Of a stretch of DNA of 48,813 bases, positions 22,999 through 26,655 are shown piece after piece. Under the pieces are notes generated by a model. The model ran no database searches. It saw only the letters and a list, made by a program, of their open reading frames with translations, and was not told the DNA's origin. The stretch is from assembly GCA_903850425.1 (NCBI GenBank), contig CAINLR010000073.1:1-48813 (forward strand), in the 5' to 3' direction. Made by a program: the position numbers and the translations under genes. The stretch is from an uncultured Verrucomicrobia subdivision 3 bacterium. GTDB lineage: Bacteria > Verrucomicrobiota > Verrucomicrobiia > Limisphaerales > UBA11358. Every line of letters starts with the position of its first letter. Within the stretch, counting starts at the first letter, position 1.

Positions 22999-24963
22999 AT
23001 GAGCAATAATAACTTCTCCCGGCGCCGCCGTGGAATGCGTTTCAAACCCAAAGGCGGTTTGAGCCCCGCTCAACAAAAACCCGATCGTGAAGCCATTGAG
23101 GCCCGCGCGGACGTGGTGACCGAACAGGGCGGTTCGGACCGGCTGTTCGAGAAACGCCACCAGCAGGAAATCGAACGCGCCGAGAATATCGCGGCCGGCT
23201 TGCCGCCCGAAGGCAAAGTCGAAACGCCCGCCGACGAGCAATCGCCGGCACAGGCGCACACGCACGAAACGCCGCCCGCGCAAGCCGCGCCCGTCGAAGA
23301 AAAAAAATTCGAGCCGGTGAAATTCGTCGAGCCGCCGAAAGGGTTGATCGAGACCATCACCACCGCCGCGACGAACATCTACAAAAAAGTTCAGCGTTTG
23401 ATTCGTCCGGAAAAGAAAGTCTGCAAGGAGGTCATCATCAATGCCGAAACGCTCGAAACGCGCGTCGCGGTTTTGGAGGACGGCAAACTGGAAGAGTTCA
23501 ACATCGAACGCACCACCGAGGAACGCCTCGTCGGCAGCATCTTCAAGGGCAAGGTCCGCAACCTCGAGGACGGCCTCAAGGCTGCGTTCGTGGACATCGG
23601 GTTCGAGAAGAATGCGTTCCTGCATTACTGGGACATCGTGCCCAACCAGTTTGACAGTGGCGTGGAAATCGTGGAACGCGAAGGCCGCCGGCCGTCACGC
23701 CCGAAGATCACGCAGCGCGACATCCCGCGCCTCTACTCGCCCGGCACGGACATCATTGTGCAGGTCACCAAAGGCCCGATCGGCACCAAAGGCCCGCGCG
23801 TCACCACCAACGTCGTGCTGCCCGGACGTTTCCTCGTCCTGTTGCCGAACTCCGACCAGTCCGGTATTTCGCGCAAGATCGAGAACATTGAGGAGCGCAA
23901 GCGCCTCAAGAAAATCCTGCGCGAACTCGCCATTCCCGAAAGCATGGGCGTCATCATGCGCACCGCCGGCGAGAACCAGCAGAAACGTTACTTCGTGCGC
24001 GACCTCGCGTTGCTGCTCGAAGAATGGAACGGCATTTCCGAGCGCATCAAGAAACAGCCCATGGCCACCTGCGTGTTCCAAGAGCCGGACCTGATCGAAC
24101 GCACCGTGCGTGATTTTCTCACGGAAGATGTCGAACGCATTGTGGTGGACAGCCTCAAAGCCCATGACCGCATGCGCGAGATGATCTCGAAAATCTCGCC
24201 CTTCTCGGCGAAAAAGATTCGTTGCTACACCGAAGCGCAACCCGTGTTCGACCGCTTCAACATCAGCAAGCAATTGGAGAACACCTTCTCCCGCCAGGTG
24301 AATTTGAAGGGCGGCGGCTGCATCGTCATTGATGAAACCGAGGCGCTCGTGGCCATTGACGTGAACACCGGCCGGCATAAAGGCGGCAAGGATCAGGAAG
24401 CGCTCATCCTCAAGGTCAACCTCGAAGCCGCCGAGGAAATCACCCGCCAGTTGCGCCTCCGCAACATGGGCGGCCTCATCGTGCTCGACTTCATTGACAT
24501 GAAAGGCGGGCGCGACCGTCAGCAGGTCTATAACCGCGTTCGCGACGGTTTGCGCCGCGACAAGGCCAAGACCCACATCCTGCCCATCTCGCAGCTCGGC
24601 CTCATGGAGATGACGCGCCAGCGCCACAGCGAGAGCGTCCGTTCCGCCGCCTATGACGACTGTCCGTATTGCAAAGGCCGTGGCAAAGTGAAGAACGTCG
24701 TCACCATGAGCGTGGAGATCCAGCGCAAGCTCCAGGAAATCCTGAAGAAACGCACGCGCGACGAGAACGACTTCCAGCTCCGCATCGTCGTCAATCCGAC
24801 CGTGCTGGACCGGCTCCGCACCGAAGACGAAAAGCATCTCATCGAGATGGAAAAGCGCTACTTCGGCAAGTTGTCCTTCCGGGCCGACACCGGCATGCAC
24901 GCCGAACAGTTCAAGATCGTGAACGTGGAAACGAACGCAGAACTCGTCAGCGTCGGCGCGTAA
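22999..24963 (+). CDS. rng: Ribonuclease E/G family endoribonuclease
   Basis: This 654-residue single-strand endoribonuclease acts in mRNA decay and rRNA processing. The catalytic core starts near residue 145 (EVIINAETLETRVAVLEDG). An S1-like region follows (GSIFKGKVRNLEDGLKAAFV). The DNase-I-like metal site has Asp454 (IDVNTGRHKGG) and Asp497 (VLDFIDM), 43 residues apart as in E. coli RNase E Asp303/Asp346. The Zn-link is CPYC (Cys555/Cys558), 58 residues on, again as in RNase E. The first ~145 residues are a charged, probably disordered extension unusual for RNase G. There is no long C-terminal scaffold. A Shine-Dalgarno-like AGAGGA precedes the ATG. An intrinsic terminator follows. The 3' end is duplicated about 800 bases downstream. 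Confidence 0.93.
   Translation: MSNNNFSRRRRGMRFKPKGGLSPAQQKPDREAIEARADVVTEQGGSDRLFEKRHQQEIERAENIAAGLPPEGKVETPADEQSPAQAHTHETPPAQAAPVEEKKFEPVKFVEPPKGLIETITTAATNIYKKVQRLIRPEKKVCKEVIINAETLETRVAVLEDGKLEEFNIERTTEERLVGSIFKGKVRNLEDGLKAAFVDIGFEKNAFLHYWDIVPNQFDSGVEIVEREGRRPSRPKITQRDIPRLYSPGTDIIVQVTKGPIGTKGPRVTTNVVLPGRFLVLLPNSDQSGISRKIENIEERKRLKKILRELAIPESMGVIMRTAGENQQKRYFVRDLALLLEEWNGISERIKKQPMATCVFQEPDLIERTVRDFLTEDVERIVVDSLKAHDRMREMISKISPFSAKKIRCYTEAQPVFDRFNISKQLENTFSRQVNLKGGGCIVIDETEALVAIDVNTGRHKGGKDQEALILKVNLEAAEEITRQLRLRNMGGLIVLDFIDMKGGRDRQQVYNRVRDGLRRDKAKTHILPISQLGLMEMTRQRHSESVRSAAYDDCPYCKGRGKVKNVVTMSVEIQRKLQEILKKRTRDENDFQLRIVVNPTVLDRLRTEDEKHLIEMEKRYFGKLSFRADTGMHAEQFKIVNVETNAELVSVGA
24901..24963 (+). 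repeat. Left copy of the duplicated RNase E/G gene end
   Basis: The last 63 bases of the RNase E/G gene match 25698-25760 at 59 of 63 positions. The differences are single bases, mostly at codon third positions or conservative, and the stop codon is TAA here and TGA in the other copy. The two copies are in direct orientation. Confidence 0.92.
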
Positions 24964-24999
24964 GCGATTGATTCAAAACTCGGATCAAAGTTCCACAAA

Positions 25000-25030
25000 C
25001 CGCCCGGCAAGTAATTGCCGGGCGGTTTTA
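25000..25030 (+). terminator. Intrinsic terminator of the mre-rng operon
   Basis: CCGCCCGGCAA (25000-25010) pairs with TTGCCGGGCGG (25015-25025) around the loop GTAA. TTTTA follows directly. The perfect 11-bp stem 36 bases after the RNase E/G stop codon makes this a strong Rho-independent terminator. Confidence 0.9.
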
Positions 25031-25077: not shown

Positions 25078-25308
25078 TTTGAATACGAATAACTCCTATT
25101 GCCGTAATAACAAATCATGTGGAGTTACCGATTAAGCATCTTAACGCATGAAGTAATTCTCTTAGCTTACCGGTTCCTTCTTTTGACGTATTATTTAATT
25201 ATATTAACGTAATGTTTAATTGTCTTGACGTATTGATACCTCCGTTACACATAACGCTTACTCCTCTTGGAGTAATGAGTATTCCTCTAAACGTAGCCTT
25301 CATTTCGC
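25078..25308. repeat. Array of eleven degenerate 21-bp units in an AT-rich gap
   Basis: Units start at 25078, 25099, 25120, 25141, 25162, 25183, 25204, 25225, 25246, 25267 and 25288, without any insertion or deletion. Within the unit, position 1 is T and position 8 is A in 11 of 11, position 7 is T in 10 of 11, position 17 is T in 10 of 11 and position 18 is a pyrimidine in 11 of 11. The core consensus is TTrACGTA at positions 1-8. Three central units (25183, 25204, 25225) are the most alike. The base composition is far below the GC of the flanks. In one plus frame each unit encodes a heptad of the type (N/D)V-x-x-x-P-L, but two in-frame TGA codons interrupt it (25080, 25149). It may be an operator or curved-DNA array, or a decayed heptapeptide-repeat gene. 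Confidence 0.75.
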
Positions 25309-25310
25309 TG

Positions 25311-25338
25311 TTGACACGGATTCCTGCGGAAATATGCT
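25311..25338 (+). promoter_or_regulatory. Promoter of the winged-helix gene, probably giving a leaderless mRNA
   Basis: A perfect -35 TTGACA (25311-25316), a 16-base spacer and a -10 TATGCT (25333-25338). The start codon ATG is at 25345, seven bases after the -10, where transcription itself should begin. The mRNA would therefore lack a leader and ribosome binding site. Confidence 0.65.
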
Positions 25339-25344
25339 GTTTCC

Positions 25345-25674
25345 ATGAATCCAGCACCGGAAACCCCCAAAAAAACCGCAACCGAGTCGTCGCTGGCGCT
25401 GCCAGGGCTGGCCAGCGCCTTGTCGCACGTCACCCGTTGGAAAATGCTCAAGGAACTGAGCGGCGGCGAGGCGCGATCCATCGAAGAACTGGCCCAAGCC
25501 GGCGGCTGCCGCTACGAAAATGCCCTCAAGCACCTCGCCATTTTGCGCGCCGCCGGCCTGGTGGTGCAGGGGCGCGGACGGCTTTATCAGATTCCCCCGA
25601 AGCATTTGACGTCGCCAGGCGAGCCGGTGGTGGATTACGGCCATTGCCTGCTGCGGCTCCACGCCGTCGAATAG
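25345..25674 (+). CDS. Small winged helix-turn-helix transcriptional regulator (ArsR-like)
   Basis: This 109-residue protein is a single winged-helix domain. LASALSHVTRWKMLKELSGG is the first helix pair, ARSIEELAQAGGCRYENALK and HLAILRAAGLVVQGRGRLYQ are recognition helix and wing, and the tail is PPKHLTSPGEPVVDYGHCLL. The fold and length fit ArsR-type regulators. The ArsR metal site (ELCVC) is absent, so a metal-independent ligand or none is expected. It stands between the 21-bp array and the second copy of the RNase E/G gene end, in a segment that looks inserted. Autoregulation through the array is a natural guess but unproved. Confidence 0.85.
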   Translation: MNPAPETPKKTATESSLALPGLASALSHVTRWKMLKELSGGEARSIEELAQAGGCRYENALKHLAILRAAGLVVQGRGRLYQIPPKHLTSPGEPVVDYGHCLLRLHAVE

Positions 25675-25697
25675 CGGCACCATCGCCCGATCAGCAG

Positions 25698-25760
25698 GCC
25701 GAACGGTTCAAGCTCGTGAACGTGGAGACGAACGCAGAACTCGTCAGCGTCGGCGCGTGA
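25698..25760 (+). pseudogene. Displaced second copy of the RNase E/G gene end
   Basis: The segment encodes AERFKLVNVETNAELVSVGA and a TGA stop. It is the same as the RNase E/G C-terminus (AEQFKIVNVETNAELVSVGA) except for two residues. It has no start of its own and follows the winged-helix stop codon by 23 bases. It is followed by its own terminator, as the intact gene is. Confidence 0.85.
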
Positions 25761-25778: not shown

Positions 25779-25810
25779 AAACGCCCCGCTAGAAATTGCG
25801 GGGCGTTTTT
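25779..25810 (+). terminator. Intrinsic terminator after the displaced RNase E/G end
   Basis: CGCCCCGC (25782-25789) pairs with GCGGGGCG (25798-25805) around an 8-base loop, preceded by AAA and followed by TTTTT. It would end the winged-helix transcript and, read the other way, the facing lipoprotein gene that stops at 25833. Confidence 0.88.
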
Positions 25811-26336: not shown

Positions 26337-26655
26337 GGAATGAATGTGGTTTAGTTTGGCATTCTGCCGCAAATCTGCGGCGCGAATGGTTTCTCGGCCA
26401 GACCCTATTTCCACCCCGCCCGCGTGTCGAGCCGAATTTCGTTCAGGCCACGCCTCCCAAAGCGCCAGAGGGCTGGCGCACTCCAAGACGCTGCGCGCTG
26501 TTCACGCCGCACTGCACCGCGCGCGAGCGTCCTGGAGTGCGGTGGCCCTCCACCGCTGTTCGGGGCGGCGTTTCAAACCCAGCCAGCGGGCCGTTTTTCC
26601 GCCGCGCCACACGGTCGCGCCGGATATATGAAGCGCACTTGATGCTCTGGCTATT
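26337..26655. other. Gene-free interval with palindromic repeat DNA
   Basis: 319 bases between the DUF2314 lipoprotein gene and the end of the sialidase-like gene. A small palindrome GCCGCA-AATC-TGCGGC lies at 26366-26381, and a long imperfect inverted repeat at 26469-26549. The open frames across it are Arg/Pro/Cys-rich repeat translations (for example VLECGGPPPL), not genes. Confidence 0.6.
26469..26549. repeat. Imperfect inverted repeat, REP-like
   Basis: A 30-base left arm (26469-26498) and a 31-base right arm (26519-26549) pair with few mismatches. The core is GCGCACTCCA-GACGCT against AGCGTC-TGGAGTGCG, with a loop of 20 bases. Frames through it give the peptide VLECGGPPPL, a phrase I recognise from repeat-derived frames in verrucomicrobial genomes. 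Confidence 0.65.

Follow-up and report, generated by a model that had tools for sequence, protein, structure and literature searches.

Arrays of direct 21-bp repeats as putative operators of small ArsR-like winged-helix genes in Verrucomicrobiota

We found that the gene of a 109-aa ArsR-like winged-helix protein in an uncultured Verrucomicrobia subdivision 3 bacterium is preceded by an array of direct 21-bp units, and that many such gene-array pairs, with differing letters, occur in Verrucomicrobia, for which reason the array is probably a row of putative docking sites. With a probability of about 0.7, we read it as a phased operator array that is private to the adjacent gene, whose product would assemble there cooperatively to control that gene; given the pitch, the position, the solitary gene and the co-divergence of protein and array, this is the simplest mechanism.

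In the window, i.e., the whole stretch of 48,813 nucleotides that was analyzed, the array occupies positions 25078..25308 of the plus strand and contains 11 consecutive 21-bp units, with a consensus of roughly TTRACGTAATGATTAATTCTC, all in register and with zero indels. At separations that are multiples of 21, identity averages 0.52, vs. a maximum of 0.35 at any period of 5–40 in dinucleotide-preserving shuffles (0/1000 above), which confirms the indel-free periodicity claimed in the first-pass annotation, made from the letters alone; shuffled upstream regions did not reproduce the 21-bp signal either (0/560 pass the array criterion). The conserved columns listed there were likewise recovered with the same counts: T at position 1 and A at position 8 in 11/11 units, T at position 7 (hence the TA step at 7–8) in 10/11 and C or T at position 18 in 11/11. 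TRF run at score 30 picks up just the middle of the array (25186–25232). The array is AT-rich (35% GC vs. 59% for the whole window), and its six frames contain 9, 2, 10, 2, 9, and 5 stops, so that the plus frame with two stops noted before is present, yet all six frames are closed. No match to a known structured RNA was obtained in Rfam at gathering thresholds for the 10 loci searched, of which the window region is one (L001). We agree with the earlier view that neither a CRISPR nor a known iteron fits. The units are only about 50% alike and stand head to tail without spacers, on which grounds a CRISPR was rejected. Plasmid iterons are tandem repeats about two helical turns apart that are bound by winged-helix proteins; here, in contrast, no replication initiator was seen, and an iteron plasmid replicon was dismissed because the array is accompanied by a protein with a single winged helix, far too small for such a role at 109 aa and devoid of matches in plasmid records.

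The regulator gene is located at 25345..25674 on the plus strand, and its product ends in DYGHCLLRL, an instance of the distinctive C-terminal motif D-x-G-H-C-L-L-R-L that alignments reveal in the family. The protein matches Pfam HTH_20 (E 2e-6, 28.1 bits, cut-off 27), but stays under the cut-offs of Pfam HTH_5 (ArsR; 19.5 bits vs. 22) and of the NCBI metalloregulator ArsR/SmtB model (38.5 bits vs. 55). In its AlphaFold2 model (pLDDT 83, pTM 0.73), the single chain shows strands and no helix after the wing, in a part where confidence is only 73–77. The best Foldseek matches of this model are of the ArsR/SmtB type and include E. coli YgaV, SmtB, NolR, CadC, and CmtR, all of them weak (best E 2.4e-3, none at or below 0.001), and a sequence search against the PDB placed a cohesin winged-helix domain on top (E 0.004), followed by ArsR proteins. 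Sequence and model comparisons together indicate that the protein carries an ArsR-type winged-helix DNA-binding domain. The genes are maintained and their products constrained, with dN/dS values of 0.20–0.39 in nine protein pairs. In PADLOC, four family proteins matched solely the Csa3, CasR, and CARF3 models, the best match being that of the window protein to Csa3 (E 3.3e-8), in an alignment that covers the winged-helix portion of the 305 model positions. Since the Csa3/CARF sensor domains were not found by Pfam in the 109-aa protein, we read these matches as shared winged-helix similarity, and an identity as a defence system was rejected. Nor do the data speak for a phage or plasmid origin, which was rejected as well: the window protein had no match in 72,556 plasmid records, the family had no confirmed relative in viral contigs, and a PHROGs search with four family proteins yielded nothing for three of them and, for L060, a weak Ren-like match (E 0.0055) and one of unknown function.

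Relatives of the regulator gene were detected in 26 of 59 related genomes at E 0.001 (own genome included), some of these being generic ArsR genes, and a profile search at E 1e-8 found relatives in 111/387 genomes of the phylum. Scanning of named genomes for the C-terminal motif returned 32 loci, of which 19 are labelled "subdivision 3" or Limisphaerales, four "uncultured bacterium" and one is a MAG labelled Akkermansia, the other eight carrying the labels Verrucomicrobia, Verrucomicrobiota or Verrucomicrobiaceae. In Verrucomicrobiota, mostly Limisphaerales, nearly all closer relatives of the regulator gene are preceded by a period-21 array, as are about half of the more distant ones. For the association count we used 274 sequences (1.24 Mb with overlaps) holding 117 distinct family matches with at least 230 bp upstream, three of the 120 distinct matches (L239, L064, L175) having been dropped for too little upstream sequence. 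The array was present in 37/37 family matches of at least 100 bits, a figure that is partly circular because the model rows were chosen partly among array-bearing genes; among matches of this strength outside the model it was present in 4/4 (L238, L241, L270, L273). At 55–100 bits, arrays were called in 17/32 non-GCC matches (15/29 outside the model) and in 1/17 GCC-type matches, and below 55 bits in 1/31; apart from one case in each group, GCC-type and generic ArsR relatives go without an array. Two of the 15/32 non-GCC relatives without an array by the criterion are 22-bp loci, and L022, L189, L219, and L255 are borderline. At the other periods tested (18, 19, 20, 22, 23, 24) there was one single call, at 22.

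Conversely, for 56 of the 64 distinct period-21 arrays in the loci examined, a family gene or a fragment of one follows downstream on the right strand at a distance of no more than 800 bp. The first-pass annotation had proposed either a phased protein-binding array or curved DNA controlling the adjacent gene; this association speaks strongly for a protein-binding array served by the adjacent 109-aa regulator, and the curved-DNA part is not supported. The eight arrays with no family gene include three in genome G019 that carry the unit of the L017 regulator, two of which were selected for matching the L017 array, as well as L108, L135, L250, L060, and L133, those of L060 and L133 being weak and located inside genes. 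Among them, L250 has a well-kept 21-bp array (1331–1540, 0.69) before a short ORF (1630–1869) with no Pfam match, which could be a second kind of partner, unless the array is a coding repeat. The array at L108 2441–2770 (G019, behind rng) is an orphan with its own unit and no family gene beside it, and the orphan array at about 4470 of L269 (= L135), also with no family gene beside it, is strongly palindromic (GAACnGGTTC).

We compared the 37 arrays whose period-21 score reached 0.43 or more (L059 is absent from alignment A2, the gene copy being short there). Homologous arrays comprise 6–17 units, with a median of 10, their GC content ranges from 27% to 67%, and their consensus units differ widely between copies. 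The pitch, in turn, is nearly fixed: the first-pass annotation had named loss of the spacing in homologues as evidence against it, and the 21 bp were kept except for two loci of genome G292 at 22 bp, one of them clear (L260, 0.59 vs. a shuffle maximum of 0.42) and the other marginal (L259, 0.44 vs. 0.43). Units within one array are about 50% identical at every separation up to 10 units, yet in register. Their register therefore seems not to stem from recent duplication, and at such identity it could scarcely have survived in a tandem repeat under neutral decay. Some arrays (L026, L263, L272) alternate two unit types with a super-period of 42 bp. Significantly palindromic units (p < 0.05) were found in 6/37 arrays, with about 2 expected by chance, and the window's unit is not among them (p 0.85); accordingly, a general palindromic operator is not claimed. 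ArsR/SmtB operators usually consist of a short imperfect palindrome or of two such elements, and such low palindromicity is unusual for the operator of an ArsR dimer.

The same comparison bears on two readings in which the adjacent protein plays no part. A pitch of two helical turns and the AT-richness of the window array would suit an intrinsic-curvature or nucleosome-like phasing element that the adjacent protein does not bind. With GC contents of 27–67%, however, A-tracts are not a shared feature of the homologous arrays, so that intrinsic curvature was rejected as one; their letters are unrelated, and it is one protein family, and not ArsR genes at large, with which they are associated, all of which makes this reading highly improbable. 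The other, a decayed gene for a heptapeptide-repeat protein, which the first-pass annotation had offered as its alternative, draws on 21 bp being seven codons and on 22/37 arrays being open in one or more frames. These open frames follow no consistent frame, however, and 15/37 arrays, that of the window among them, have stops in all six, for which reason coding sequence was rejected and the chance of a decayed gene is negligible. As a separate observation, the best-kept array of all (0.84), at L072 1193–1402 (= L053) in the MAG labelled Akkermansia, is open in at least one frame and reads as a heptapeptide repeat.

Protein and array diverge together. Unit similarity averages 0.67 for protein pairs of at least 70% identity (n = 10, with shared members, so that not all are independent), 0.36 at 60–70% identity (n = 12) and 0.28–0.31, i.e., background, below 60%. 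Protein and unit similarity are correlated on the gene's strand (Mantel r 0.33, p 0.0002) vs. r 0.05 (p 0.16) on the reverse strand, although common descent alone could yield part of this correlation. L039 and L046 share an orthologous RNA-metallohydrolase/YajQ locus in which the neighbours differ by dS 0.29 and 0.22 and the regulator genes by dS 0.84, with arrays that give no alignment; the module has thus been exchanged there, or evolves far faster than its flanks.

As for the privacy of the arrays, a search for the unit pattern that allowed at most 2 mismatches gave 6 matches in the window's own genome (96% complete), 3 in the window array and 3 scattered, vs. 8+8 for the reversed-pattern control; a diverged array would escape this pattern, which recovers just 3/11 of the window array's own units. 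In BLAST searches, the L072 array in G326 and the L043 array in G025 each retrieved the query alone, and the L043 array gave nothing in G026 and one short match in G023, where the related L041 array was missed. Such single-array searches are a blunt test of privacy, since related arrays known to be present (G019:C78, G023:C165) escaped them. Privacy is clearly broken at least once, in G019, where three further arrays (L274 337–546; L276 about 1480–1720; L277 about 1458–1690) repeat the unit of the L017 regulator, with similarities of 0.77, 0.73, and 0.83 vs. means of 0.26–0.29. No family gene was detected in these three loci, and a RuvX gene (Pfam E 1.8e-43) begins about 55 bp behind the end of one of the arrays. 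The extra arrays and the bluntness of the privacy tests slightly lower our estimate for the private operator and slightly raise that for a centromere-like function, considered below. A bolder and rather improbable idea is that array and protein are a minimal selfish pair, a mobile, centromere-like piece of chromosomal DNA together with its cognate coating protein. The specificity of this protein would diversify so fast that the letters become unrecognizable between modules at one genomic position, with the two-turn pitch locked, and extra arrays such as the three of G019 would spread without the gene, bringing, e.g., ruvX under the same protein.

The position of the modules points to the target of the putative operator. 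By a simple ORF rule, applied to 37 modules that form a different set from the 37 arrays above (chosen by score plus flank length), the upstream neighbour is co-directional in 29/37 and divergent in 8/37, and the downstream neighbour is convergent in 22/37. Most modules follow the 3′ end of the gene before them, so that their own promoter is the only nearby one that the array can serve; a divergent partner gene as the target was rejected on the count of 8/37. In the window, a −35-like box TTGACA (25311..25316, plus strand) stands just behind the array, and a −10-like box TATGCT (25333..25338, plus strand) lies 6 nt before the ATG. TTGAC recurs in 13/37 array-to-gene gaps (2.0 expected; absent in 24/37), in all 13 at 34–36 nt from the ATG and in 12/13 within about 20 bp of the array end. 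No Shine-Dalgarno-like column enrichment was seen in 37 ATG-anchored upstream stretches, and the placement of the −10-like box and of TTGAC suggests a leaderless mRNA. The 30 largest clusters of ORFs from the flanks contain no shared NTPase, TubZ or recombinase partner, and the families common to the flanks are the regulator family itself, its frame shadows and orthologous flanks of a few loci.

We propose the following course for the private operator. The 109-aa ArsR-like protein would bind the units side by side on one DNA face, two helical turns apart, and probably form a cooperative nucleoprotein filament that reaches up to the promoter of its own gene. This filament would control the gene's own leaderless mRNA, most likely by repressing or else by tightly metering it. 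The pitch would be fixed by protein-protein contacts and the letters would drift quickly along with the specificity of the protein, and array, promoter and gene would be passed on, duplicated and relocated together as a single small unit, in most cases behind the 3′ ends of other genes. Binding, cooperativity, the sign of regulation and the mechanism of movement are what we infer here.

Several known systems resemble this layout. TubR is a small winged-helix protein reported to bind direct repeats upstream of its own operon, to repress itself and to form a filament on DNA (PMC5016525), and a winged-helix gene with direct repeats upstream is likewise what the window holds. TubR-tubC, however, is a plasmid system that includes the motor protein TubZ, whereas here the gene is solitary and chromosomal, with no NTPase or TubZ neighbour, and the TubR topology ends in a helix 5 that the window protein appears to lack in its model. 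For StbA of plasmid R388, one DNA-binding protein and two phased direct-repeat blocks around its own promoter are described (PMC3098194), with 9-bp units, 2-bp spacers and an stbABC operon, unlike the 21-bp units and the lone ArsR-like gene found here. BldC and RdfS are small winged-helix proteins that assemble head to tail on direct repeats or extended DNA, with one DNA turn between bound molecules of BldC (PMC11963761; PMC5859096); they are of the MerR/Xis type, whereas the window protein is ArsR-like, and the portions of these papers that we consulted describe no private, fast-changing array of about ten units tied to each gene copy. The ArsR/SmtB autorepressors, characterized by a C-terminal helix 5 that serves dimerization and has metal sites, share the fold and the sequence of the DNA-binding domain with the window protein, which, in turn, scores under the metalloregulator cut-off and seems from its model to have no helix 5. 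In our comparison, the module would work like TubR/tubC, StbA/stbDR or BldC in layout and yet be a member of none. No description of such arrays or operators was found in a subset of PubMed Central, as judged by titles and the starts of abstracts, nor did the part consulted of a 2014 Methylacidiphilum paper (PMC4210602) contain anything on 21-bp arrays. In this family, a small DNA-binding protein and its presumed site array occur as dozens of natural pairs, near-fixed in geometry and free in their letters. They can serve directly as a data set on the evolution of winged-helix specificity, and as a test of why a bacterium would devote about ten sites to a single autoregulated gene.

The likeness to TubR/tubC and StbA/stbDR, a small DNA-binding protein with direct repeats by its own promoter, together with the length of the arrays and with the four dispersed arrays of one unit type in G019, might also be taken to mean that the array is a centromere-like (partition) or chromosome-anchoring site, whose DNA the protein would coat for positioning or segregation, with autoregulation as a secondary effect. 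We consider this unlikely: no NTPase-like neighbour is shared in the 30 largest clusters, the window protein and its family lack plasmid and confirmed viral-contig relatives, respectively, and genomes carry several non-identical arrays each.

Evidence for movement of the module comes from close pairs of loci. Five of eight such pairs (L044/L047, L043/L041, L057/L061, L057/L063, L005/L058) share the module alone, with homology that begins in the array or the gene and stops within 11 bp of the end of the stop codon; the other three (L062/L066, L037/L054, L046/L044) share their flanks too, and so vertical inheritance is also common. From these sequence comparisons, gene and array move together. 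Direct repeats of 39–139 bp flank 6/51 modules, that of the window included, vs. 9/600 control placements. In four of the six, the repeat is the 3′ end of a neighbouring host gene (rng, beta-CASP RNA metallohydrolase, ychF, purQ; rng and purQ being the usual gene names for the Pfam families found); the repeats of L044 are fragments of a metallohydrolase gene whose parent is absent from the locus, and the sixth module is that of L073.

In the window, where the neighbours of the regulator gene are RNase E/G and DUF2314, array and gene are enclosed by a 65-bp direct repeat (94%) of the 3′ end of the upstream rng gene (RNase_E_G by Pfam), with a proximal copy at 24897..24961 and a distal one at 25694..25758, both on the plus strand. 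The proximal copy is followed by a terminator-like hairpin (24997..25028, plus strand), a 14-nt perfect inverted repeat and then T-rich DNA, and the distal copy by a terminator at about 25781–25809. The rng terminators of eight relatives (L102, L103, L105–L109, L116) resemble the distal one and are unlike the proximal one; with the native-type terminator behind the distal copy, the proximal rng end, its terminator, the array and the gene look inserted, and of the two rng copies, the proximal one with its terminator appears to be the one that arrived. In the set of 30 rng loci compared, own genome included, the module stands at rng in the own genome alone, and the G019 rng locus carries at the equivalent place the orphan array with a different unit.

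The flanking repeats, most of them host gene 3′ ends, could be accounted for if the protein were an Xis-like recombination directionality factor, whose filament beside the duplicated 3′ end would steer excision or insertion of the cassette by a recombinase acting in trans. Winged-helix factors of this kind, such as RdfS, do oligomerize on DNA (PMC11963761). The Xis/RDF proteins of integrative elements, however, have an integrase and att sites nearby, whereas no recombinase neighbour is shared among the 30 largest clusters and 45/51 modules have no flanking repeat; toxin-antitoxin pairs lie between like repeats at L047 and L144 with no array of their own seen, which implies that the mobility is not peculiar to the regulator. 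We therefore regard such a helper role as very unlikely. The arrangement at L047 (468–2130) consists of the purQ 3′ end, the array and regulator, a copy of the purQ end, HigB with a small partner ORF and a second purQ-end copy, i.e., two small cassettes in a row separated by the 3′-end repeats of one host gene. In L144 (oriented, about 488–1260), 3′-end fragments of a beta-CASP metallohydrolase gene, the parent of which is not in the locus, bracket ParD/ParE, and in L159 (oriented, about 480–780) two such fragments lie about 180 bp apart. Second rng 3′-end copies around other inserts occur downstream of rng in L119 and L115, the insert of L119 resembling a REP-type palindrome. Further downstream in the window, a 42-nt imperfect inverted repeat (74%) with arms 33 nt apart is found in GC-rich DNA at 26451–26567.
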